A stretch of 33,411 nt of DNA, taken from assembly GCA_017745195.1 (NCBI GenBank), contig JAGHZW010000133.1, positions 1 through 33,411 of the forward strand, given 5' to 3'. Positions 21,411 through 33,236 of this stretch are shown one piece after another. The position numbers were made by a program, and so were the translations under genes. The notes beneath the pieces were generated by a model that saw only the letters and a list, made by a program, of their open reading frames with translations, was not told the DNA's origin and searched no databases. Numbering within the stretch: position 1 is the stretch's first letter; each line of letters starts with the position of its first letter. Origin of the DNA: Pseudoxanthomonas sp. GTDB taxonomy: Bacteria; Pseudomonadota; Gammaproteobacteria; Xanthomonadales; Xanthomonadaceae.

Positions 21411-21439
21411 TTGACGCACTAGTTTCAGGTGACTATGGT
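21411..21439 (+). promoter_or_regulatory. Sigma-70-type promoter for the M23 peptidase gene
   Basis: TTGACG (21411-21416), a 17-base spacer and TATGGT (21434-21439) form a good -35/-10 pair, 47 bases before the ATG at 21487. It is the best-matching promoter in the window. Confidence 0.65.
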
Positions 21440-21486
21440 ACCCGCCAGTGGGCCGCACTCCGGGGTCCCGTGAAGGAAGTCAAGCG

Positions 21487-22902
21487 ATGCCCATCCCCGA
21501 CCACGGCCGCGTCCGCAAGCAGCAGTTCCACGACCGCCTCGGCATCCTTCACCACAGTTACCTGCATCGCAAGCTGAAGGAACGGTTCCCCGCCGCCTTC
21601 AACACCCGCTGGACCCGTCGCCACTGGCTGCATGCCAGCCTGTTCGCGACCCTCGGCGCGCTGCTGGCCACCATTGTTCCCGGCTTCTCCTCCCAGCTGC
21701 AGCCGACCTCGCTGACCCAGGCGACGCTGCCGTTGCAGCTGCCCCCGCTGACCGTCCACTCGGCCGGCGCGGCCGAGGGCAGTTACTGGGATGTGGTCCA
21801 GGTCGAACGCGGCCAGACCCTGGGCCAGCTGTTCGAGGAAATCGGCGCGCCGGCGGCGACCATGCACCGGATCCTCGAGAACCCGGCCAACCGCGAGGCG
21901 CTGACCCGCCTGCGCCCGGGCGCCGAGATCGCATTCCGCCACGACGAACACGGCGCGCTGCGCGGCTTCCGCTTCGATCGCAGCCCGACCGAGCGGGTCG
22001 AACTGGACCTGCAGGGCGAAGCGATCCACGAGAAGGTGCTCGAGCGCGCCACCACCACCCGCGTGGCGGTGACCAGCGCCGAGATCGACCATTCGCTGTA
22101 CGCCGCCGGGCGCAAGGCGGGGCTGAGCCCGGCCGCGATCGCGGTGATGACCGACGACATCTTCAAGTACGACATCGACTTCAAGGACGTGCAGCCCGGC
22201 GACCGCTTCAGCGCGGTGGTCGAGGAGACCTGGCGCGAGGGCGAGCTGGTCGGCACCGGCAAGATCCTCGCCGCCACCTTCAGCACCGACGGCAAGACCT
22301 ATACCGGCTTCCGCTACGAGCGCAACGGCAAGACCGAGTACTTCACCGCCGACGGCCGGCCGCTGAAGAAGAGCTTCATCCGCATGCCGATCCCGTACGC
22401 GCGCCTGTCTTCGACCTTCGGCTCGCGCCGGCATCCGGTGCTGGGCACGATGCGCATGCACAAGGGCGTGGACTACGCCGCCGGCACCGGCACCCCGATC
22501 ATGGCTGCCGGCGACGCGCGCGTCGCCTTCGTCGGCCAGCAGCGCGGCTACGGCAACGTGGTGATCCTCGATCACGGCCGCGGCTACACCACGCTGTACG
22601 CGCACATGTCGCGCTTCGGCAAGGAGCGCAAGGGCCAGCAGGTCGCGCAGGGCACGGTGATCGGCTACGTCGGCTCCACCGGCCTGGCCACCGGCCCGCA
22701 CCTGCACTACGAATTCCGCGTCAACGGCGTGCACCGCAATCCGCTGTCGGTGACCATGCCGCCGCCGGAACCGCTGAAGGGCGCCGACCTGGTCGCGTTC
22801 CGCGCGGCAACCGCACCGGCCCTGGCGCGGATGGAATCGATGGAAAAGATGATGTTCGCCCAGGCCGACTCGGCCAAGGCGAAGAAGGACAAGCGCGGCT
22901 GA
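21487..22902 (+). CDS. M23 family murein endopeptidase (MepM-like)
   Basis: Cuts peptide cross-links in peptidoglycan, allowing wall growth. The 471-residue protein has a basic cytoplasmic start, one membrane helix (about 46-66, LHASLFATLGALLATIVPG), then a LysM/OapA-like region (SYWDVVQVERGQTLGQLFEEIG), a linker domain, and the LytM zinc domain: HKGVDYAA (His325, Asp329) and PHLHYEFRVNG (His405, His407). All zinc and catalytic residues are present, so it should be active, unlike degenerate EnvC or NlpD types. AAGGAAG lies just upstream of ATG 21487. anmK follows 71 bases later, coupling wall cutting to recycling. Confidence 0.94.
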   Translation: MPIPDHGRVRKQQFHDRLGILHHSYLHRKLKERFPAAFNTRWTRRHWLHASLFATLGALLATIVPGFSSQLQPTSLTQATLPLQLPPLTVHSAGAAEGSYWDVVQVERGQTLGQLFEEIGAPAATMHRILENPANREALTRLRPGAEIAFRHDEHGALRGFRFDRSPTERVELDLQGEAIHEKVLERATTTRVAVTSAEIDHSLYAAGRKAGLSPAAIAVMTDDIFKYDIDFKDVQPGDRFSAVVEETWREGELVGTGKILAATFSTDGKTYTGFRYERNGKTEYFTADGRPLKKSFIRMPIPYARLSSTFGSRRHPVLGTMRMHKGVDYAAGTGTPIMAAGDARVAFVGQQRGYGNVVILDHGRGYTTLYAHMSRFGKERKGQQVAQGTVIGYVGSTGLATGPHLHYEFRVNGVHRNPLSVTMPPPEPLKGADLVAFRAATAPALARMESMEKMMFAQADSAKAKKDKRG

Positions 22903-22973
22903 GCCCGCGTCCGGATACGGTGGTGCCCTCGCGCCGCCTCGCCGCGCAGCGCCGTCCCGGTTAACCTGCGCGG

Positions 22974-24116
22974 ATGCCGCACCTCTTCCTTGGCCTGATT
23001 TCCGGCACCAGTGCCGACGGCATCGATGCCGCGCTGGTCGAATTCCCCGACCCCGGTTCCGCGCATGGCCTGCGCCTGCGCGCCGCGCATGTGCATCCGT
23101 GGACGCCGACGCTGCGCGAACGGCTGGTCGCGCTGGGCCAGGGCGGTGCGCTGGCCTCGCTGGACGAGCTCGGCCATCTCGACGTGCAGGTCGCGCAGGC
23201 CTTCGCCGACGCCGCCTGCACGCTGCTGGACCAGGCCGGCGTCGCCCCGTCGCAGGTCGCCGCCATCGGCTCGCACGGCCAGACCGTGCGCCACCGCCCG
23301 CATGGCGAGGCGCCGTTCACCCTGCAGATCGGCGACGGCAACGTGATCGCCGAGCGCACCGGAATTGCCGTGGTCGCCGATTTCCGTCGCCGCGATGTCG
23401 CCGCCGGCGGCCAGGGCGCGCCGCTGGTGCCGGCCTTCCACGCCGCGCTGCTGCACGCCGCCGACGAGGACCGCGCGGTGCTCAACCTCGGCGGGATCGG
23501 CAACTACACCCTGCTTCCGCGAGGCGCGCACCCCGGGTCGCCCGGTCCGGGACAGGCCGTTCGCGGCTTCGACACCGGGCCGGCCAACGCGCTGCTCGAT
23601 GCCTGGTGTTTCCACCACACCGGTGCGGCGTTCGATGCCGACGGTGCGTTCGCGGCGAGCGGCCAGGTCGACGAGGCGCTGCTGGCGCGCCTGCTCGAAG
23701 AGCCGTGGTTCGCGTTGCCGCCGCCCAAGAGCACCGGCCGCGAACAGTTCCACCTGGACTGGGTGCGCTCGAAGCTGCGCGGCGGCGAAGCCGCGGCCGA
23801 CGTGCAGGCGACCCTGCTCGAGCTGAGCGCGGCCACCGTCGCCGACGCCCTGCACGCGCAGCAGCCGGGCACGACCCGGGTCATCGCCTGCGGGGGTGGC
23901 GTGCGCAATCCACCGCTGATGCAGCGCATTGCCACGCGCCTGCCGGGGGTGACGATCGAATCGTCCGCGGCGCACGGGCTGGATCCTGACTTCGTCGAGG
24001 CGATGGCCTTCGCCTGGCTGGCGCGCGAATGCCTGGCTGGGCGCCCCGGCAACCTGCCCGCGGTCACCGGCGCGCGTGGTCCGCGAGTGCTGGGCGTGGT
24101 GCATCCGGCGACGTGA
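22974..24116 (+). CDS. anmK: Anhydro-N-acetylmuramic acid kinase
   Basis: Phosphorylates and opens 1,6-anhydro-MurNAc to MurNAc-6-phosphate during cell-wall recycling. The 380-residue cytosolic protein begins [22 protein letters not shown], the family signature, and continues with [45 protein letters not shown] and [10 protein letters not shown]. Near the end it has [15 protein letters not shown]. Length is near the usual 370. It follows the M23 peptidase on the same strand; the AmpG-like importer of its substrate pathway is in the same window at 31.9-33.2 kb. Confidence 0.97.
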
Positions 24117-24225: not shown

Positions 24226-27200
24226 CTAGAGCTTCTCGCCGCCGAACTTCCAGGTGAAGTTCAGGTAGTACGCGCGACCGATCGTGTCGTACCAGTTGAA
24301 GTTGTAGAACGGATAGTCGACGTTGCTGAAATCGCGCGGCGGCATGGCGTTGGTCAGGTTGTTCACGACCAGCGAAAGGCGGGCGCGGTCGTTGATCCTG
24401 TAGCCCACCGATGCGTTGTAGCGCCAGGTGGCGGGCAGGTACGCCTCGACGTCGGGCAGATAGCTCTCGTCCCAATCCTGGTACCAGAAGTTTTCATCGG
24501 TGGGGATCTTGCCCAGCCGCGATGCGTACAGCGTGGCATCCCAGGCGCTGCGCTCCCAGCCGATGCTGGCATTGAACTTGTTGCGCGGAATGTCATAGCC
24601 GCTGTTGATGGCGAGCATGTCGACAAGCGCCGCATCGGGGGCGTCCTTGCGTTCGTGCGAGTTCACCCAGGTGTAATTGGCGGCGAAACGGAAGGTGCCG
24701 ACTCCGGTTTCCAGACGGTAGTTCGCGGCGGCGTCCAGGCCATTGGTCCTTTCCATGCCGATGTTGACGTAGCCGCCATGGACCGAGGCGATGTGATTGT
24801 CGGCACCGCTGCGCACGACACGCGCGATGGTGTCGGCGCAGAACTGCGAATCGGGATCCTGGTCGAGGCCCAGGCGGCAGTCGTATTCGTCCTGCAGGAT
24901 CTGGTTCACGCTCAGCGACTGGGTCTGGTTGCGCATGTCGATGTCGTACCAGTCCAGCGAGAAGTCCAGCTCCGGCATTGGCGACCACACCACGCCCGCC
25001 GTCCATGACGTGCTGGTCTCGGCTTTCAGGGTCAGATCGCCGCTCCTGTCCAGCTGGAAGCCTTCGTCGGAAAAATCGCAATCGTTGACGGGCACGCCCG
25101 GCTGCTCGGTGGCGCAGCGGTAATAGTCGATGCCGCTGCTGTCGACCGAGCCCTTGCCCGCGTACAGATGGTGCAGTTCCGGTGCGCGGAACGCGGTGCC
25201 GTAGGAGCCGCGGACCAGCAACGTGTCGATGGGCCGCCATTCCAGGCCGGAGCTGTAGGTGAACTTGCTCTGGCTGCGCCCGGAGTACCGGTACTGGTCG
25301 TAGCGACCGGCCAGGCTCAGGTTCAGGCTGTCGAACACCGGCATGCGCAGTTCGCTGGCGAGCGCCCAGCGATTGCGGCTGCCATGGCCATCCTGGTCCT
25401 TCCAGCCCCAGTAGTAGAAAGAATCGCCGGTCGCCCTCGGATCGGTGTTCAGGTCGTAGCCCTGGTTGCCCAGTTCAGCCGTCGCGGCAATACCCGCCGC
25501 GCCGCCGGACAGGTCGAACAGCTTGCCATTGGTTACCGTGAACGACAGCGTCTCGTTGTGCGACTCCGGGTTGTACACGATGTGCGCCAGCATCGAATCG
25601 AGCTGCGCCCGGGTCAGCGGCGTGTAGAAGCGGGTCAGATCGCCGTCGTAGATCGGGTAGCCATCGGCATCCGTGCCCAGTTGCGGGCCCATGAAATAGT
25701 CGTTGGCCACATCGGAAATGATGCGCGGCCAGCTCACCCTCGCCTTGTATTGCGAATAGCTGAATGCCGCCTCGTAATCCCAATCCTGGGCGAAGGTGCC
25801 GCGCAGGCCGGTGCTGAGGCCGAGGGTCTTGTTCGTGGTTTCGGTAAAGCTGTTGGACACGCCACCCAGCTCTTCAGGCGTGAACCGGCGGCGCCACCAC
25901 TCGAGCTGGTCGGTGCTCTGGTTGAAGAAGTAATCGGTGATGGCGTCGGTCTGCGCCGTTTCCCATGTAGGCAGACGGCCCATCTGCTTCATCTTCTGGT
26001 AGCCCAGCTGCAGGTCCGCGAACCATTCCGTGCCGCCGCCGAAGTCGTAGCTGAAGGAACCGTAGGCGGTGATGCCGCGGCGCTCGTGGATGATGGTCTG
26101 CAGCGCGGCAGCGGTATCGCTGCCGCAATAGGACTCGCCATAGCGGTTGTCGGTGATGTAGTACGAATCACGATTGCCCGGGTCGTTGCAGGCGGCTTCG
26201 CCGGGATCGAGCCAGCTGTCGTACCAGTCGCTGCGGGCGAAGAAATCCACCGGCCTGTAGTAGTTGTCGAAATCGACGATGTCGCTGGACGAATCCTGCC
26301 GGCTGCGCTGGTAGCCCCACAGCGGCTTCTGCTCGTTCAATTCCACGCCCATTACGGCGTTGAACCCGCCACGCGCAAAACCGCCGGCCAGGGTCAGGTT
26401 GTACGATTCGCCGCCGCCGGCCTGGGTATCACCGTAGCGGAAGTTCATGGTCAGGCCGTCGGCCTGCTTTTTCAGGATGATGTTGACCACGCCGGAAACC
26501 GCATCGGAGCCGTAAATGGCCGAGGCGCTGCCGGTGAGCACTTCGATGCGCTCCACCATGCCAAGCGGAATGCTGGAAATGTCGGTGGCGCTGACCCCGC
26601 CATCCATCGGCAAGGGGAAGTCGGCCAGGCGGCGGCCATTGACCAGCACCAGCGTGTGGTTCGGGCCCAGACCGCGCAGGTCGACCTGCTGCGCGCCGGG
26701 GGTGAAGTCCGAGTTGCTGAGCGATTGCGGGCTCTGGGTCGCGCCGTTGTTCTGGGTCATCGACCTCATCACCTCCGGCATGGTGGTGAAGCCGTTGGCG
26801 CGGATCTGCTCGGCGGTGATCACGCTGATCGGCGAAGGCCCTTCGATCTGCGCCCGCGGGATGCGTGAGCCGGTGACCTGCACCGCCTCGATCTCGGTCA
26901 CTTCCCCTTCCTGCGCCTGCGCGGGGCTGCCGGCATCGGGGTCCTGCGCAGCCGGCTGCGGTGCGGGCGCGCGACGCGGCGTGTCGACGCGCGCCACCAG
27001 CACCGCGCCGGTGGCCTGGTCGCGGCGCGCACCGAAGCCGCTGCCGTGCAGCAGCTGCTGCAACGCCTGGTCGGTCGAATCGGCGCCCTGCACGCCGGCG
27101 GTGCGGCGGCCCTTGAGTTCATCGGCGCGATAGACCAGCTGGGTATCGGACTGGCGGGCCAGGGTGTTGAGCGCGGCCGCCAGGTCGCCGGCCGGTACGT

Positions 27201-27288
27201 TGATCGGGCCGGATGCCTGGGCCGCCTGCGCGCCCAGCGCGGTCGAACAGGCCAGGCTCAACAGCAGGACTCGCGACGGATGACGCAT
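24226..27288 (-). CDS. TonB-dependent outer-membrane receptor with N-terminal STN signalling domain
   Basis: A 1020-residue receptor. After a signal peptide (to about residue 26) comes an STN domain (about 27-100: PAGDLAAALNTLARQSDTQLVYRAD), a Pro/Ala linker, then the plug (VTGSRIPRAQIEGPSPISVITAEQI to GSDAVSGVVNIILKK) and a 22-strand-type barrel ending NFTWKFGGEKL. The STN domain normally contacts a FecR-type anti-sigma protein, and fecR and fecI genes lie directly upstream on the same strand, so ligand-induced expression is expected. The GSRIPR plug start is typical of the large xanthomonad receptors that take peptides or sugars, not obviously siderophores. Start ATG 27288 has GGAGAG close by. 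The ligand is unknown; the neighbouring cyanophycinase fusion suggests a peptide. Confidence 0.9.
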   Translation of the reverse strand: MRHPSRVLLLSLACSTALGAQAAQASGPINVPAGDLAAALNTLARQSDTQLVYRADELKGRRTAGVQGADSTDQALQQLLHGSGFGARRDQATGAVLVARVDTPRRAPAPQPAAQDPDAGSPAQAQEGEVTEIEAVQVTGSRIPRAQIEGPSPISVITAEQIRANGFTTMPEVMRSMTQNNGATQSPQSLSNSDFTPGAQQVDLRGLGPNHTLVLVNGRRLADFPLPMDGGVSATDISSIPLGMVERIEVLTGSASAIYGSDAVSGVVNIILKKQADGLTMNFRYGDTQAGGGESYNLTLAGGFARGGFNAVMGVELNEQKPLWGYQRSRQDSSSDIVDFDNYYRPVDFFARSDWYDSWLDPGEAACNDPGNRDSYYITDNRYGESYCGSDTAAALQTIIHERRGITAYGSFSYDFGGGTEWFADLQLGYQKMKQMGRLPTWETAQTDAITDYFFNQSTDQLEWWRRRFTPEELGGVSNSFTETTNKTLGLSTGLRGTFAQDWDYEAAFSYSQYKARVSWPRIISDVANDYFMGPQLGTDADGYPIYDGDLTRFYTPLTRAQLDSMLAHIVYNPESHNETLSFTVTNGKLFDLSGGAAGIAATAELGNQGYDLNTDPRATGDSFYYWGWKDQDGHGSRNRWALASELRMPVFDSLNLSLAGRYDQYRYSGRSQSKFTYSSGLEWRPIDTLLVRGSYGTAFRAPELHHLYAGKGSVDSSGIDYYRCATEQPGVPVNDCDFSDEGFQLDRSGDLTLKAETSTSWTAGVVWSPMPELDFSLDWYDIDMRNQTQSLSVNQILQDEYDCRLGLDQDPDSQFCADTIARVVRSGADNHIASVHGGYVNIGMERTNGLDAAANYRLETGVGTFRFAANYTWVNSHERKDAPDAALVDMLAINSGYDIPRNKFNASIGWERSAWDATLYASRLGKIPTDENFWYQDWDESYLPDVEAYLPATWRYNASVGYRINDRARLSLVVNNLTNAMPPRDFSNVDYPFYNFNWYDTIGRAYYLNFTWKFGGEKL

Positions 27289-27302: not shown

Positions 27303-27365
27303 GTGCCGCAGCGGCACTCCCATCAGCTATGGACGAACGACGCGGCCGATGCCCCCATGGCCGCG
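27303..27365 (-). promoter_or_regulatory. Two hairpins in the fecR-receptor gap
   Basis: CGCGGCC (27341-27347) pairs with GGCCGCG (27359-27365), and GTGCCG (27303-27308) with CGGCAC (27312-27317). Both lie in the 83 bases between the fecR stop and the receptor start; the second sits just before the receptor ribosome binding site. They may lower or stabilise receptor mRNA relative to fecIR. Function is inferred. Confidence 0.4.
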
Positions 27366-27371
27366 CACCGA

Positions 27372-28451
27372 TCAACGTGAATGCAGCACGATCCGGTCCG
27401 GGTGGCGCTCGGCACGGACCGGGAAGCCCTGTTCAAGCAGGCCGACGAAACCTTCCAGGTTGGACCAGCGGAAATTTCCGCCGATGCGCAGCTGCGCCAC
27501 CGCCGGATCGGCCAGTTCCAGGCGGCGCGCATTGAAGCGGTTGAACTCGCCAGCCGCCTGCGCCAGCGGAATGTCGTCGAAGGCGAGGAAGCCGTCGCGC
27601 CAGCCCAGGTAGCGCTGCGCCTCGGCCAGCGGCAACGAGCGGACCAGCACACCGTTGCGGCCGGCCGTGGCCAGGCTGCCGGCGGGCAGCAACGCGACCG
27701 GTGCGGCGTGGCCGTCCCTGTCGGGCGCACCCTCCAGCCGGACCCTCCCCTCGGTCACCAGCACCCGCACGCTGTCGGCGTCGCGACGGACCGCGTAATG
27801 CGTGCCCACGGCCACCGCGCGCTGGCCGGCGGCCTCGACCACGAACGGCCGGCCCGGATCGTGGGCGACCTCGAAGAAAGCTTCGCCGCGGATCAGTTCG
27901 ACATGCCGCGCGCCGCGATCCAGGCGCACGTCCAGCTGGCTGTCGCTGCTGAGCGTGGCGCGGGAGCCGTCGGCCAGGGCGACCTCGCGGACCTGGCCCA
28001 GCGCGCTGGCATAACTGGCCTGGTGGCGGCCACCCAGTTGCCAGCCGCCCCAGCCCAGGCCGGCGGTGATGGCCAGGACCGCGCTGGCGGCCAGCCAGCG
28101 CTGCCAGCGCGCCGGCCGGGCAGGATCCGGGCGCGGCGCGAACGCTACCGCGCGCAGGTCGGGACGCTGGTCATCGCCCGCGCCTGCGACCGTGGCCGGG
28201 GTCCGCGCCGACATCCACTGCGACCACTGGTCGCGCGCGGGCACCTGCCCCGGCGGCAGGCCGGCGGCAAGCGCCTGCAACCGCCCGGCCTCGGCCCAGG
28301 CCGACTGCAGCCGCAGCAGCGCCACCCGGTGCGCGGTGCTTTCCTGCAGCCACGCCTGCAGCGCGCGCTCGTCATCCGCGCCCCACGACCCGGCATCGCG
28401 CCGGGCCAGCCACGCCGCGGCGGCGTGCTCAATCTTCCTGCTGTCGGCCAT
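27372..28451 (-). CDS. FecR family anti-sigma/sigma-regulator protein
   Basis: A 359-residue inner-membrane regulator that passes the signal from the receptor STN domain to the sigma factor. An N-terminal cytoplasmic DUF4880 region (about 5-50: IEHAAAAWLARRDAGSWGADDERALQAWL) binds the sigma factor. One membrane helix (about 116-139) follows, then the periplasmic FecR domain (GQVREVALADGSRATLSSDSQ, RGEAFFEVAHDPGRPFVVEA) and a C-terminal DUF4974 region (GFLAFDDIPLAQAAGEFNRFN). ATG 28451 overlaps the end of the sigma gene by 23 bases, indicating coupling. Confidence 0.93.
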   Translation of the reverse strand: MADSRKIEHAAAAWLARRDAGSWGADDERALQAWLQESTAHRVALLRLQSAWAEAGRLQALAAGLPPGQVPARDQWSQWMSARTPATVAGAGDDQRPDLRAVAFAPRPDPARPARWQRWLAASAVLAITAGLGWGGWQLGGRHQASYASALGQVREVALADGSRATLSSDSQLDVRLDRGARHVELIRGEAFFEVAHDPGRPFVVEAAGQRAVAVGTHYAVRRDADSVRVLVTEGRVRLEGAPDRDGHAAPVALLPAGSLATAGRNGVLVRSLPLAEAQRYLGWRDGFLAFDDIPLAQAAGEFNRFNARRLELADPAVAQLRIGGNFRWSNLEGFVGLLEQGFPVRAERHPDRIVLHSR

Positions 28452-29019
28452 GTCCCTGGTCCCCGTCCGCCCCGGACCGTGGCGCCCGCCGCGCAGGCTC
28501 CGGCGCACCGCCACCGTAGAGGTGGTCGGCGAGCAGGCGCATGCCCTTGGCCAGGTGTTTTTCCACGGTCCTTCCGCTGATGCCCAGGCGCTGGGCGACG
28601 TCGTTCTGCGACAGCTCCTCGACCCGGCGCAGCCACACCACTTCGCGGCAACGTCGGGGCAGTGCATCCAGGGCTTCGACCAGCCGTCGCAGCGCCTGGC
28701 GGGTGCCGAACCAGCGTTCCGGCGACACCTCGTCGATCAGGTAGACGTTCGAGGACTCGAAATCACCCACCGGTTCGATCGACACCACCCGGCTGCGGCG
28801 CAGGCGGTCGGTCATCAGGTGCCGGGCGGTGGCGAAGACGAAGGCCCGCGGCGTGGCCGGGCGGCTGCGCGCGGCCGCCTCGTACACGCGCACGTAGACT
28901 TCCTGGCGCAGGTCGTGCACCTCGTCGCGCCGCGGCCAGCTGCGCAGCAGGTACTGGGTCAACGTCCGCTCATGGACCAAGACCTCGCGGACGAACCACT
29001 CATCCAGTTCGTTGGGCAT
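28429..29019 (-). CDS. ECF sigma factor, FecI type
   Basis: A 196-residue RNA polymerase sigma factor. Region 2 spans about 13-80 (LTQYLLRSWPRRDEVHDLRQEVYVRVYEAA, then PRAFVFATARHLMTDRLRR) and region 4 about 112-168 (LDALPRRCREVVWLRRVEELSQNDVAQRLGISGRTVEKHLAKG). The layout sigma, fecR, receptor is the classical FecI/FecR surface-signalling unit. An extra Arg/Gly-rich tail of about 25 residues overlaps fecR. It is divergent from the cyanophycinase fusion gene with 119 bases between them, a gap that could hold promoters for both. Confidence 0.92.
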   Translation of the reverse strand: MPNELDEWFVREVLVHERTLTQYLLRSWPRRDEVHDLRQEVYVRVYEAAARSRPATPRAFVFATARHLMTDRLRRSRVVSIEPVGDFESSNVYLIDEVSPERWFGTRQALRRLVEALDALPRRCREVVWLRRVEELSQNDVAQRLGISGRTVEKHLAKGMRLLADHLYGGGAPEPARRAPRSGADGDQGHGRQQED

Positions 29020-29138
29020 GGCCGCACTCTAACCCGACCATCGCCTGCGCACGGATGGGGGATCGTGGCCGCCGGTTCGTCTAGGCTGTCTGCCGGCCCG
29101 CGGCGTTTTGCCGTGGCCCTGGAACCTGGAGTGGCGGA

Positions 29139-31079
29139 ATGAAGAAGCGTGGTGGCGGTTTGCGGAAGATGGCCGGCCTGGTCCTGGCCTGCGCATTGGC
29201 TGGACCGGCGGCAGCAGCCGACTACGGCCATTACCTGCTCGGCGACACCACCGCGAAGACGCCCGGCCGCGTGCAGCCCGGCCTGCTGCTGATGGGCGGC
29301 GGCGACCGCAACTTCGATGCCATGCACTGGTTCATGAAGAAGGCGGGCAACGGCCACATCGTCGTGCTGCGCGCTTCGCAGGGCGGCGAGATCGGCGAGG
29401 AGTTCTTCAACGAGGTCGGCGGGATCGCCTCCGTCGAGACCTTCGTGTTCAAGGACCGCGAGGCGGCCTCCGACCCGGTGGTGCTGGCCGCGCTCAAGCG
29501 CGCCGACGGCATCTTCCTCGCCGGCGGCGACCAGTCGCGCTACGTGCGCTACTGGCGCGGCACGCCGGTGGCCGAGGCCCTGGACGCGCACGTGCGTGCG
29601 GGCAAGCCGCTGGGCGGCACCAGCGCCGGCCTGGCGATGCAGGGCGAATACCTCTACGGCGCAATGGACGGCGGCAGCCAGACCAGCCCGGCCGCACTGG
29701 CCGATCCGCTCGGCGACGGCAACACGATCGAGACCGGCTTCCTGCACCTGGATGCGCTCAAGGGCGTCATCACCGACACGCATTTCAGCGAGCGCGGCCG
29801 CCTCGGCCGGCTGGTCGCCTTCGTCGCCAAGGGCGAGGCGCTGGCCGGAAAGCCGCTGATCGGACTGGGCGTGGACGAAGACGCGGCGGTCGCGGTGGAA
29901 GGCGACGGCCACGCGCGCGTCTACGCGACTGCGCCGGGCGCCGGTGCGACGGTAGTCAAGGGCGGTTTCGCGCAGAAGCAGGCCGAAGACGCGCCGATGC
30001 AGCTGGCGCAGGTGGAAACCGTGGTGGCCGGCGTGGATTCGGTGCTGCACCTGCCGTCCGGCAAGGTTGATCGTCCCGCTGCGCAGCGCCGCTATGCGGT
30101 GCGCGACGGCGTGCTGGTCGCGCTCGACACGCCGCTGCTGGTGATCCACGGCGGCGCCGGGGTCGAGCGCGCCGGCCTGTCGGCCAGCGAAGAGGCCGAG
30201 GCGCGCAAGGCGCTGGAAGCGGCGCTGCGCGCCGGACACGCGCAACTGAAGGCCGGCAAGCCGGCGGTGGAGGCGATCACCGCCGCGATCACCGTGCTGG
30301 AGGACGCGCCGCAGTTCAACGCCGGTCGCGGCGCGGTGTTCACCCACGACGGTCGCAACGAACTGGATGCCTCGATCATGGATGGCGCCAGCAACCGCGC
30401 CGGCGCGATCGCCGGCGTGCACCGGGTGCGCAATCCGATCCTGCTGGCGCGCGCGGTGATGGAACACTCCAGGCACGTGATGATGGCCGGCGACGGCGCC
30501 GAGGCGTTCGCCGCCGAGCAGGGCATCGAACTGGTCGACCCGTCGTACTTCCGCACCGACAAGCGCTGGCAGCAGCTGCAGAAGGCGCTGGCCGAGGAAG
30601 CCCGGGCGCAGGCGTCCAATACGCCGCTGGCGCTGCCGGGCAAGGCCTATTTCGGCACCGTCGGCGCGCTGGCGCTGGATGCGCAGGGCAGGCTCGCCGC
30701 GGGCACGTCCACCGGCGGCATGACCAACAAGCGCTACGGCCGCATCGGCGACTCGCCGATCATCGGCGCCGGTACCTGGGCCGACACGCGCTGTGCGGTG
30801 TCCGGCACCGGCTGGGGCGAGTTCTACATCCGTACCGCCGCCGCGCACGAGATCTGCGCGCGCGTGCGCCTGGCCGGGCAGCCGCTGGCCAAGGCCGCCG
30901 ATGCGGTGATCAACCGCGATATTCCTGCCGCCGGTGGCGATGGTGGCGCGATCGCACTCGGCGCCGATGGCAGCGTGGCGTTCCCGTTCAACACCGAGGG
31001 CATGTACCGCGGCTGGATCGGCGCCGACGGCGTGCCGCACGTGGCGGTGTTCCGCGCCGAAGCGCTGCCGCTGCCGTGA
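29139..31079 (+). CDS. Secreted fusion: cyanophycinase-like S51 domain + isoaspartyl peptidase/asparaginase
   Basis: A 646-residue protein with a signal peptide (MKKRGGGLRKMAGLVLACAL, cut near PAAA), so periplasmic or exported. Residues about 45-310 are cyanophycinase-like: LLLMGGGDRN, IFLAGGDQSRYV, the nucleophile elbow GGTSAG (Ser162), TDTHFSERGRLGRLV (His215) and GVDEDAA (Glu247), a Ser-His-Glu set like CphB. Residues about 333-646 are an Ntn-hydrolase of the plant-type asparaginase/isoaspartyl peptidase family: LLVIHGGAGV, FNAGRGAVFT, the autocleavage Thr507 in YFGTVGALALD, STGGMTNKRYGRIGDSPIIGAGTWAD. Cyanophycinase releases beta-Asp-Arg, which the second enzyme class can split to Asp and Arg, so one polypeptide could do both steps. 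GGAG precedes the ATG. It is divergent from fecI. Confidence 0.92.
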   Translation: MKKRGGGLRKMAGLVLACALAGPAAAADYGHYLLGDTTAKTPGRVQPGLLLMGGGDRNFDAMHWFMKKAGNGHIVVLRASQGGEIGEEFFNEVGGIASVETFVFKDREAASDPVVLAALKRADGIFLAGGDQSRYVRYWRGTPVAEALDAHVRAGKPLGGTSAGLAMQGEYLYGAMDGGSQTSPAALADPLGDGNTIETGFLHLDALKGVITDTHFSERGRLGRLVAFVAKGEALAGKPLIGLGVDEDAAVAVEGDGHARVYATAPGAGATVVKGGFAQKQAEDAPMQLAQVETVVAGVDSVLHLPSGKVDRPAAQRRYAVRDGVLVALDTPLLVIHGGAGVERAGLSASEEAEARKALEAALRAGHAQLKAGKPAVEAITAAITVLEDAPQFNAGRGAVFTHDGRNELDASIMDGASNRAGAIAGVHRVRNPILLARAVMEHSRHVMMAGDGAEAFAAEQGIELVDPSYFRTDKRWQQLQKALAEEARAQASNTPLALPGKAYFGTVGALALDAQGRLAAGTSTGGMTNKRYGRIGDSPIIGAGTWADTRCAVSGTGWGEFYIRTAAAHEICARVRLAGQPLAKAADAVINRDIPAAGGDGGAIALGADGSVAFPFNTEGMYRGWIGADGVPHVAVFRAEALPLP

Positions 31080-31083
31080 TCCA

Positions 31084-31593
31084 TCACCCGGCCGCCAGCA
31101 GCGCCTGGTAGCGCTGCAGGTCGGCCGCGGAAAAACAGCAGAACACCACCTCGCGCACGACCTGCGCGGGGAACGCGGCGACCGTGGCCACCGCCAGCGG
31201 CGCGGCCAGCTCCGGCGGATAGCCGTACACGCCGGTGCTGATCGAAGGGAACGCGATGCGCGTGCAGGCATGCGTTTCGGCCAGGGCCAGGCTGTTGCGG
31301 TAGCACGCCGACAGCAGCGCGGCCTCGTCATGCCCGCCACCGCGCCAGACCGGGCCGACCGCGTGGATCACGTGGCGTGCGGGCAGCCGATAACCGGAAG
31401 TGATCCGCGCCTGCCCGGTGGGGCAGCCGCCGAGGCTGCGGCATTCGGCCAGCAGCAGCGGCCCGGCGGCGCGGTGGATCGCGCCGTCCACGCCACCGCC
31501 GCCGAGCAGCGAGCTGTTGGCGGCATTGACGATGGCATCCACCGCCAAGGTGGTGATGTCCGCCTGCAGCGCGCGCAGCGACGGCGAAAGCAT
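31084..31593 (-). CDS. Macrodomain ADP-ribose hydrolase / O-acetyl-ADP-ribose deacetylase (YmdB-like)
   Basis: A 169-residue single macrodomain protein close in memory to E. coli YmdB (177 residues). Residues about 11-42 read [20 protein letters not shown] followed by [14 protein letters not shown], the ADP-ribose binding loop with Asn23 and Asn26. [12 protein letters not shown] and [13 protein letters not shown] (second loop) also match. Expected reactions are removal of acetyl from O-acetyl-ADP-ribose or of ADP-ribose from proteins. It lies 10 bases downstream of a small RHH-like gene on the same strand and ends 4 bases from the fusion gene stop (convergent). Confidence 0.93.
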
Positions 31594-31910: not shown

Positions 31911-33236
31911 TCAGTCGCCCGGCGAAGCGGCCCCCGGCTCGCGGATTCGCCGCCACAGCCAGGCCAGCAGCAGCAGGGTCGGCACCACGGTCAGCGCACT
32001 GAGGGTGAAGAAGGTCGCGTACGAACTGGCCTCCACCAGGTAGCCGGACAGGCCGCCGGCGAACTTGCCCGGCAGGTTGGCCAGCGACACCATCAGCGCG
32101 AACTGGGTCGCGGTGAAATCGCGGTCGGTGAGCGAGGACATGAACGCCACCAGGGTGGTGCCGGCGAAACCCTGGGCGACGTTGTCGGCGGTGATCGCCG
32201 CGTAGAATGCCCAGATTTCCGACGGATGGTTGGCCATCAGCAGGAACGCCAGGTTCGACAGGGCCACGCCCAGCGCGGCCACCAGCAGCATGCGGCGGAA
32301 GCCGAACGCGGCCACGCACACGCCGCCGAGGAATGCCCCACCAATGCCGGCCCAGATCCCGTACAGCTTGGATACCGTGGCGATATCGGCCTTGCTGTAG
32401 CCGGAGTCCAGGTAGAACGGGCCGGCCATCACCCCGATCACCTGGTCGGGGAATTTGAACAGGCCGACGAACAGCAGCAGCACGACGCCGAAGACCACAC
32501 CGTTGTTGCGGAAGAAGCTCGAGAACGGCTGCCAGAACGCGCCCAGGAAATCGATCCGGCGCTGCACCGAGGTCTCCGGCGCGGCCGGCTCGCGGCTGAG
32601 CAGCGTGGCCAGCAGCGGCAGCGCCATCAGTGCGGCCATGCCCAGGTAGGCCGCCGTCCAGCCGGCGAAGTCGGCCAGGTACAGCGCGCCGGCGCCGCCG
32701 AGGATCAGGCCGATCCGGTAGCCCAGGGTGTAGGTCGCCGCCAGCGCGGCCTGCGCGTTCGCTGGCGCGATCTCGATGCGGTACGCATCGACCACCGAAT
32801 CCTGGGTGGCGCCGGCGAAGGAGGTGAACAGCACCCAGCCCACCAGCGGCATCACGCCCAGCTCGGGGCGGACGAAAGCCAGCGCGCCCAGGCCCAGCGC
32901 CACCCCCGCCTGCGCGGCCAGCAGCCACGAACGGCGCCGACCGAGCAGGCCCAGCGGCAGGAACACGTAGCGGTCCAGCAGCGGCGCCCACAGGAACTTG
33001 AACAGGTAGAAGAAGCTGGCCAGGCTGATCAGGCCGATCTCGTGCAGGTCCAGGCCGGCATCGCGCAGGCGCGTGGACAGGGTCAGCGAGGCGATCGGCA
33101 GGAACGGCAGGCCGCAGCCGAAGCCGAACACCGCCATGCTCAGCGCCGACGGCGTGCCGAAGGCGCGGCGGATCCCGGCCCAGCCCTTGTACGAAGGTTT
33201 TTCCCCCGCGGCGGCCGCCCCGGTTTCGGCGCTCAC
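31911..33236 (-). CDS. AmpG-like MFS transporter (muropeptide permease family)
   Basis: A 441-residue protein with about twelve membrane helices. FGFGCGLPFLPIASLTLSTRL after a short cytoplasmic start, EIGLISLASFFYLFKFLWAPLLDRY, and SFAGATQDSVVDAYRIEI (the ATQDxxxDA motif) are typical of AmpG permeases, which import anhydro-muropeptides for recycling. The middle motif FKFPDQVIGVMAGPFYLDSGYSKADIA also fits. It is a little shorter than E. coli AmpG (491). The GTG start overlaps the stop of the exonuclease III gene by four bases (GTGA), so the two are translationally coupled. With anmK in the same window a recycling role is likely, though other AmpG-family members carry different cargo. Confidence 0.88.
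   Translation of the reverse strand: MSAETGAAAAGEKPSYKGWAGIRRAFGTPSALSMAVFGFGCGLPFLPIASLTLSTRLRDAGLDLHEIGLISLASFFYLFKFLWAPLLDRYVFLPLGLLGRRRSWLLAAQAGVALGLGALAFVRPELGVMPLVGWVLFTSFAGATQDSVVDAYRIEIAPANAQAALAATYTLGYRIGLILGGAGALYLADFAGWTAAYLGMAALMALPLLATLLSREPAAPETSVQRRIDFLGAFWQPFSSFFRNNGVVFGVVLLLFVGLFKFPDQVIGVMAGPFYLDSGYSKADIATVSKLYGIWAGIGGAFLGGVCVAAFGFRRMLLVAALGVALSNLAFLLMANHPSEIWAFYAAITADNVAQGFAGTTLVAFMSSLTDRDFTATQFALMVSLANLPGKFAGGLSGYLVEASSYATFFTLSALTVVPTLLLLAWLWRRIREPGAASPGD

Follow-up and report, generated by a model that had tools for sequence, protein, structure and literature searches.

Is a single reading frame that joins a cyanophycinase-like domain to an isoaspartyl peptidase domain a genuine gene, and what would its product do? 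The question is raised by the gene at positions 29139 to 31079 (plus strand) of a 33,411-nucleotide stretch of DNA from Pseudoxanthomonas sp. (contig JAGHZW010000133.1 of assembly GCA_017745195.1), the whole of which we call the window. We find that the fusion is real, conserved and undescribed in the literature searched, and residues, fold and gene context make it probable that it encodes a bifunctional exported enzyme that degrades cyanophycin in a scavenging locus, co-regulated with an importer. No published description of a fusion of cyanophycinase with isoaspartyl peptidase (IaaA) was found in that literature, which covered few subscription journals; an original prediction, made from the sequence alone, had likewise known of no characterised protein with this architecture.

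The gene starts with ATG and runs as one uninterrupted frame of 646 amino acids, with its sole stop at the end. Both domains announced by the original prediction are recognised by Pfam, Peptidase_S51 over residues 115-256 (E 1.1e-8; 35.5 bits against a cut-off of 23.9) and Asparaginase_2 (PF01112) over residues 332-636 (E 1.2e-109). Key residues, profile and fold delimit a cyanophycinase-like domain of MEROPS family S51 at residues 27-327 (29217..30119, plus strand), and about three residues past its end begins an N-terminal-nucleophile hydrolase domain of the IaaA type, from family T2 of isoaspartyl peptidases and plant-type asparaginases (residues 331-646; 30129..31076, plus strand). The junction, HLPSGKVDRPAAQRRYAVRDGVLVALD followed by TPLLVIHGGAG, is free of any linker, and a model of the full-length protein reached a predicted local distance difference test score (pLDDT) of 83.2 and a predicted template modelling score (pTM) of 0.82. 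Ahead of both domains, residues 1-26 (29139..29216, plus strand) form a predicted Sec-type signal peptide, MKKRGGGLRKMAGLVLACALAGPAAA/ADYGHY, whose cleavage point was judged by eye; this single leader had also been foreseen.

A first set of 98 related loci comprised 69 fusions, six loci with two adjacent genes and 23 with IaaA alone, the last class including one locus (L074) so classed merely through a contig end. Eight pairs of loci were one record taken twice, and removal of six duplicates left 63 distinct fusions. An assembly error or frameshift joining two genes, against which the original prediction had cautioned, might be suspected because separate adjacent genes exist in relatives. It is ruled out, with next to no probability left to it, by a junction that aligns without gaps in all 63 distinct fusions, by a full-span open frame in at least 100 of 395 genomes of the same taxonomic family (the window's own included; the count was made by eye and is a lower bound) and by ratios of nonsynonymous to synonymous substitution of 0.04-0.31 in both domains in eight of eight close pairs. 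Both halves are under purifying selection. In one further family genome (G745) the fusion frame is broken off by a contig end.

The fusion is therefore a family present in at least about a quarter of the sampled family genomes and not a lone oddity, so that its sequences already stand in public databases; what holds of the novelty first claimed for the architecture is that it is undescribed in the literature searched. Among the best 80 matches its hosts are Pseudoxanthomonas, Luteimonas, Thermomonas, Lysobacter, Dokdonella, Arenimonas, some Xanthomonas and genomes without a genus name; Pseudoxanthomonas daejeonensis (L021) is one species that has the locus. Surveys of the class (369 genomes) and the phylum (299 genomes), in which at most three to four candidates were scored per genome, few close relatives were included and rare fusions could escape, found it only in the window's genome and one genome of the same genus. 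Three other genomes at first seemed to hold fusions, G240 through a spanning row and G107 and G1055 through rows with long frames, but in each of them the genes are separate. By a simple rule, 62 of the 63 distinct fusions have a signal-peptide-like N-terminus; in the exception (L058) the start codon was probably chosen wrongly. Lipoprotein export is unsupported, with a standard lipobox in one fusion of the 63 (L042) and none conserved among relatives.

The S51 half carries the catalytic set named in the original prediction, at the residue numbers given there: Ser162 within GGTSAG (codon 29622..29624), the proposed nucleophile, His215 within DTHF (29781..29783) and Glu247 within GVDED (29877..29879), all on the plus strand and identified by motif and alignment. 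Ser162 and His215 are each present in 62 of the 63 distinct fusions and Glu247 in every one. The pocket residues Gln132, Asp213, Arg219, Arg221 and Arg224, equivalent to Gln101, Asp172, Arg178, Arg180 and Arg183 of CphB, are retained in 62 or 63 of 63, and Thr214 in 63. In one locus (L070, the same record as L005, from Pseudoxanthomonas sp. NC8) the stretch from Ser162 to Arg224 is disrupted or divergent while the frame is still open; the genome of the same record (G014) has a listed completeness of 57%, and sequencing errors are possible there.

Gln132, Ser162, Asp213, Thr214, His215, Arg219, Arg221, Arg224 and Glu247 correspond to the key residues Q136, S171, D222, T223, H224, R228, R230, R233 and E251 reported for CphEal, the CphE of Pseudomonas alcaligenes DIP1, in the available part of PMC3235067. 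Compared through these published residues, CphE resembles the fusion in its signal peptide, the Ser of GXSXG, Asp-Thr-His, Glu and the Gln/Asp/Arg pocket; unlike the fusion it stands alone, has a mature mass of 43.6 kDa and stops at the dipeptide, according to the same text. CphB (PDB 3EN0, 7UQW) shares the fold, triad and pocket residues of the S51 half, and differs in being stand-alone, intracellular and about 23% identical to this domain. Thr214, immediately before the catalytic His, is the Thr of the exported type (CphEal), where CphB has Gln. In alignment E. coli PepE differs at Thr214 and also at Gln132 (Thr in PepE), Asp213 (Glu) and Arg219 (Glu).

Sequence matches of the S51 half to solved proteins were 7uqv (the best), 3en0 and 7uqw, all named cyanophycinase. 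A profile built from 41 S51 relatives matched cyanophycinase structures at 6e-21 to 6.5e-19, against 3e-3 for peptidase E types, and all 41 aligned members match the NCBI cyanophycinase model TIGR02069 at E <= 0.001. When a model of residues 30-330 (pLDDT 90.2, pTM 0.91) was compared with the PDB by Foldseek, the top nine chains (from 7uqv, 3en0 and 7uqw) were cyanophycinase or pseudo-CphB (E 6e-18 to 2e-16), followed by the 'cyanophycinase-like' exopeptidase 6nqc (1.4e-11) and then by peptidase E types, none of them better than 3e-8. Residues, profile and fold thus rule out peptidase E or an MccG-like S51 peptidase as the best fit. A role of the S51 half in detoxifying peptidyl-nucleotide antibiotics might be suspected from MccG, which belongs to the S51 peptidases and cleaves an isoaspartyl-nucleotide according to the accessible text of PMC9239234. 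Such a role is extremely improbable, however: that toxin is set free within the cell, the fusion has an export signal, and in fold and profile the S51 half matches cyanophycinase.

The second half is 153/315 identical to E. coli IaaA over the aligned residues. Its predicted autocleavage site and nucleophile, Thr507 (codon 30657..30659, plus strand), lies within FGTVGA and aligns with Thr179 of the E. coli enzyme, and Gly506-Thr507 is present in 63/63 distinct fusions, as are Thr525, Arg535, Asp538, Thr557 and Gly558. The latter align with Thr197, Arg207, Asp210, Thr230 and Gly231 of E. coli IaaA (EcAIII), which we take to be substrate and catalytic residues. The full model has the uncleaved E. 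coli IaaA precursor as its best fold match (E 6.6e-35), and modelling, proposed with the original prediction, places the two halves with cyanophycinase and E. coli IaaA structures respectively. The NCBIfam beta-aspartyl-peptidase model NF007589 scores 312.4 bits, below its equivalog cut-off of 567. E. coli IaaA (PDB 2ZAK, 3C17) has the same whole fold, the Thr nucleophile after Gly and the catalytic residues that were checked; it differs in standing alone, in lacking a signal peptide and in having Thr232 where the fusion has Trp559.

Given the conserved site and the match to the uncleaved precursor, cleavage before Thr507 is to be expected. In solved IaaA the alpha chain remains bound to the beta chain after cleavage, and because the S51 domain is continuous with the IaaA alpha chain, the expected product, by analogy, is an S51-alpha chain plus a beta chain in which the two enzymes are not separated. 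The original prediction that autocleavage could split the protein therefore stands for the chain, which would be cut, but not for the enzymes, which would stay together.

Trp559 (codon 30813-30815) is Trp in 63/63 fusions and in 18/18 non-fused exported relatives of the tree set, and Thr or His in 5/5 outgroup rows. In these alignments it marks the exported IaaA group, and it may shape specificity. As a mark of specificity for cyanophycin it is not supported, since the aligned enzyme of 8dqm, presumably RhIaaA from a cyanophycin cluster, has Asp there.

The gene context, which the original prediction missed, is the most informative evidence on function. Divergent from the fusion gene lies a FecI-like sigma factor of the extracytoplasmic function (ECF) type (28429..29019, minus strand; profile match), followed by a FecR-like anti-sigma/signal protein (27372..28460, minus strand; its start is approximate, as the open frame extends to 28667) and a TonB-dependent receptor (24226..27288, minus strand; likely ATG at 27288) with an N-terminal STN-like domain that, at 28.0 bits, falls marginally below the Pfam cut-off of 28.4. 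FecI adjoins 61 and FecR 60 of the 63 distinct fusions, and the receptor is present at 53 of 57 fusion loci taken from genome contigs; of the four loci without it, L035, L048 and L058 run into a contig end no more than 2.3 kb upstream. At L063 receptor, FecR and FecI are all missing within 6 kb, and L045 has the receptor and lacks FecI and FecR. All six two-gene loci of the first set (five of them distinct) have FecI; of three further two-gene loci, one (G046) has FecI, FecR and receptor, and in two (G223, G332) the receptor is present while both FecI and FecR are missing.

None of the three genes was found beside the 23 IaaA-only loci; in L013-L020 the flank was limited to 1.5 kb, and L074 and L092 are truncated. 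In five species of the same genus (L079, L014, L016, L018, L019) IaaA stands alone at the same chromosomal spot, and where these have IaaA alone the window has a block made up of receptor, FecR, FecI and S51. In Xanthomonas and relatives IaaA is commonly found alone, apparently exported by a signal peptide of its own (L013, L014, L016-L020, L079, L084-L088, L090-L098). Besides its fusion (C23:53721-55625), one genome (G010) has another IaaA match, at 75% identity (C26:100301-101278). In a genome of another family (G075, locus L134), an exported-looking S51 gene is divergent from a TonB-dependent receptor, and no IaaA was seen in the stretch read; this arrangement is perhaps an older form of the module.

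Do these genes share a promoter? Alignment of the stretches upstream of fusions yielded the motif GGGGGA-N12-KTTCGTC, which was scanned with up to two mismatches. In the window a site GGGGGA-N12-GTTCGTC lies 57 bases before the fusion ATG (29057..29081, plus strand), and a second copy, with GGGGGC for GGGGGA, 43 bases before the likely ATG of the receptor (27332..27356, minus strand). In 62 of 63 loci the motif is found no more than 200 bases from the start of the fusion, 36 times as an exact copy, 20 times with a single mismatch and six times with two, as against a mean of 0.455 loci and a maximum of three in resampled sequence; this count is partly circular, the motif having been built from those stretches, and the receptor side is the test. 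There the motif is present in 50 of 52 reachable regions, where resampling leads one to expect 0.59 (maximum three). It is absent before IaaA in the 21 IaaA-only loci examined (0/21).

The loose pattern alone is not specific: the same scan gave 43 additional matches at other positions in the 63 loci, including 12 on the minus strand 200-500 bases upstream, approximately at the position of the sigma gene, and the window holds four matches where 1.4 are expected. For a scan of the 3.6-Mb genome the sixth base was widened to A or C after the receptor site had been seen, and the first base after the spacer was fixed as G. The resulting pattern, GGGGGM-N12-GTTCGTC, has exactly two perfect copies, both at this locus, before the fusion and before the receptor; a further 15 matches have one mismatch, giving a total of 17 against 11 for a backward control. 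No sigma-70-like promoter was found in 28900-31250. From the position of the shared site, and its resemblance to ECF promoters, we infer that FecI reads it.

Do the hosts make the polymer themselves? No cyanophycin synthetase (CphA1) over the cut-off was found in the window's genome (best score 86 bits against 850). Among 60 relatives CphA1 reaches the cut-off in 21, and of the 12 genomes in that set with a full fusion (the window's genome, G000, with G001-G003, G006, G009, G010, G012, G013, G014, G022 and G028) it does so in two, G006 and G028, where a separate leaderless S51 gene adjoins it. In this set, then, the fusion occurs mostly where the host seemingly does not make its own polymer, and for most of the hosts examined, scavenging of foreign polymer seems likelier than use of their own.

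This fits a report, in the part of PMC10206079 at hand, that of 32 genomes without CphA1, 94% have their cyanophycinase and IaaA genes clustered, an arrangement interpreted there as a scavenging cluster. The locus in the window has the same composition: cyanophycinase and isoaspartyl peptidase together, in one gene, no CphA1 over the cut-off and a TonB-dependent receptor as transporter. A TonB-dependent receptor near a cyanophycinase gene, with cyanophycin as the proposed substrate, is also described for Citromicrobium sp. JLT1363 in the available text of PMC3400609. As far as these two partly available sources go, such clusters (cyanophycinase with iaaA or iadA, often a transporter, no cphA1) resemble the fusion locus in the clustering of the enzymes, the nearby transporter and the usual lack of a synthetase, and the fusion locus is unlike them in having a single exported protein, an ECF sigma/FecR pair and a promoter motif at two sites. 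Mechanism and fold are known from two enzymes; the novelty lies in their fusion, in the export of both activities and in the sigma locus with its two predicted promoters.

We therefore favour the reading of a bifunctional exported cyanophycin-degrading enzyme. The fusion protein would leave the cytoplasm by the Sec pathway, and its S51 half, with the Ser162-His215-Glu247 triad and the Gln/Asp/Arg pocket of CphB and CphE, would cut cyanophycin to beta-Asp-Arg; the IaaA half, autocleaved before Thr507, would split beta-Asp-Arg into Asp and Arg. The polymer would in this way be taken to free amino acids outside the cytoplasm by halves that remain together as S51-alpha plus beta. The TonB-dependent receptor would sense the substrate, import it or both, and signal through FecR to the sigma factor, which once activated would transcribe the genes of the fusion enzyme and the receptor. 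More tentatively, and with rather less than an even chance, the locus may be a self-inducing importer devoted to an amino-acid polymer, in which the receptor takes cyanophycin chains or fragments into the periplasm, the tethered two-site enzyme turns them into free Asp and Arg without release of the dipeptide, and the entire ECF regulon consists of the two promoters.

Several observations weigh against a dedicated role in cyanophycin degradation. The solved protein nearest in sequence, 7uqv, is titled pseudo-CphB, and fold alone is no proof of activity; identity to solved cyanophycinases is about 23%; TIGR02069 scores 102.1 bits over the whole protein and 104.1 for the domain, below its cut-off of 126.6; and 22 of the 41 aligned S51 relatives weakly match the PepE model as well. 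The studied IaaA enzymes, even those from cyanophycin clusters, are promiscuous as far as the available part of PMC10206079 states, and exported IaaA occurs without S51 in many relatives (22 of 23 IaaA-only loci, the other being L074, cut by its contig end), so that the role of IaaA is not tied to cyanophycin. The window's genome is 87.6% complete, which makes the absence of CphA1 uncertain. Two loci, L045 and L063, carry the site before the fusion without FecI nearby, so that its reader there need not be a neighbouring sigma factor, and the receptor would be dispensable if the enzyme were secreted and free amino acids entered through porins. The title of 7uqv and the two loci with the site and no FecI slightly lower our confidence.

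The promiscuity of IaaA, the missed TIGR02069 cut-off, the pseudo-CphB title and the IaaA-only loci also favour the view that the protein serves the general degradation of aspartyl and isoaspartyl peptides (aged protein fragments or other beta-Asp material), its S51 half being a broad exopeptidase and its IaaA half a promiscuous isoaspartyl peptidase/asparaginase. Against this, the cyanophycin pocket residues of CphB and CphE are retained in 62-63 of 63 fusions, three of the five (Gln, Asp and one Arg) being different or absent in PepE, and fold and profile favour cyanophycinase over PepE by many orders. We consider this alternative unlikely, although it keeps some weight.

A different clue to function might be sought in the wider surroundings. 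On one side of the locus lie genes for an M23 peptidase (21448-22902, plus strand) and anmK (22974-24116, plus strand), and on the other an AmpG-family transporter (31911-33236, minus strand), as would suit a protein of cell-wall recycling. An AmpG neighbour is found at only 11 of 69 fusion loci, however, against 66 of 69 for FecI (duplicates and short flanks included), and the anmK and M23 neighbours are not conserved as a group across fusions. IaaA-only relatives occur at the same spot without the module, so that these surroundings look like a chromosomal address and not a functional group; a cell-wall role is very unlikely. A macro-domain gene of the O-acetyl-ADP-ribose deacetylase type (31084-31593, minus strand; 242.5 bits, cut-off 200) lies tail to tail with the fusion gene, four bases past its end. 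Long minus-strand frames at 21433-24104 and 28959-31340, opposite the M23 peptidase, anmK and the fusion gene, look like shadow frames of high-GC DNA; those in 21433-24104 have no Pfam match, and two of them opposite the M23 peptidase and anmK (u21433, u22707) served only as position markers in the gene-order comparison.

How did the fusion arise? Among two-gene relatives IaaA has its own leader in L015, L080, L081 and L089, and both genes have one in L128, L129 and L130. The simplest history is that neighbouring exported enzymes fused by losing a stop and the second leader. In a first S51 tree the fusions fell on one side of a branch with a support of only 33, and in an IaaA tree that included the IaaA-only rows they were scattered, with six changes. 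After removal of the IaaA-only rows and of two long S51 rows, two changes were required in each tree, and a single clade gave p values of 0.756 and 0.863 in the approximately unbiased test. A single origin is thus not rejected in the reduced trees, nor proven by them. Because the full IaaA tree is mixed, later losses, recombination or a second fusion are possible.

If the favoured reading is true, the fusion would be a natural single enzyme that breaks a nitrogen-rich polymer down into free Asp and Arg, useful for cyanophycin technology, and the sigma factor with its two predicted promoters would amount to a cyanophycin-inducible switch. The receptor is a concrete candidate for the uptake of cyanophycin across the outer membrane, and cyanophycin from lysed cells would be linked to a named gene set in relatives of Xanthomonas.

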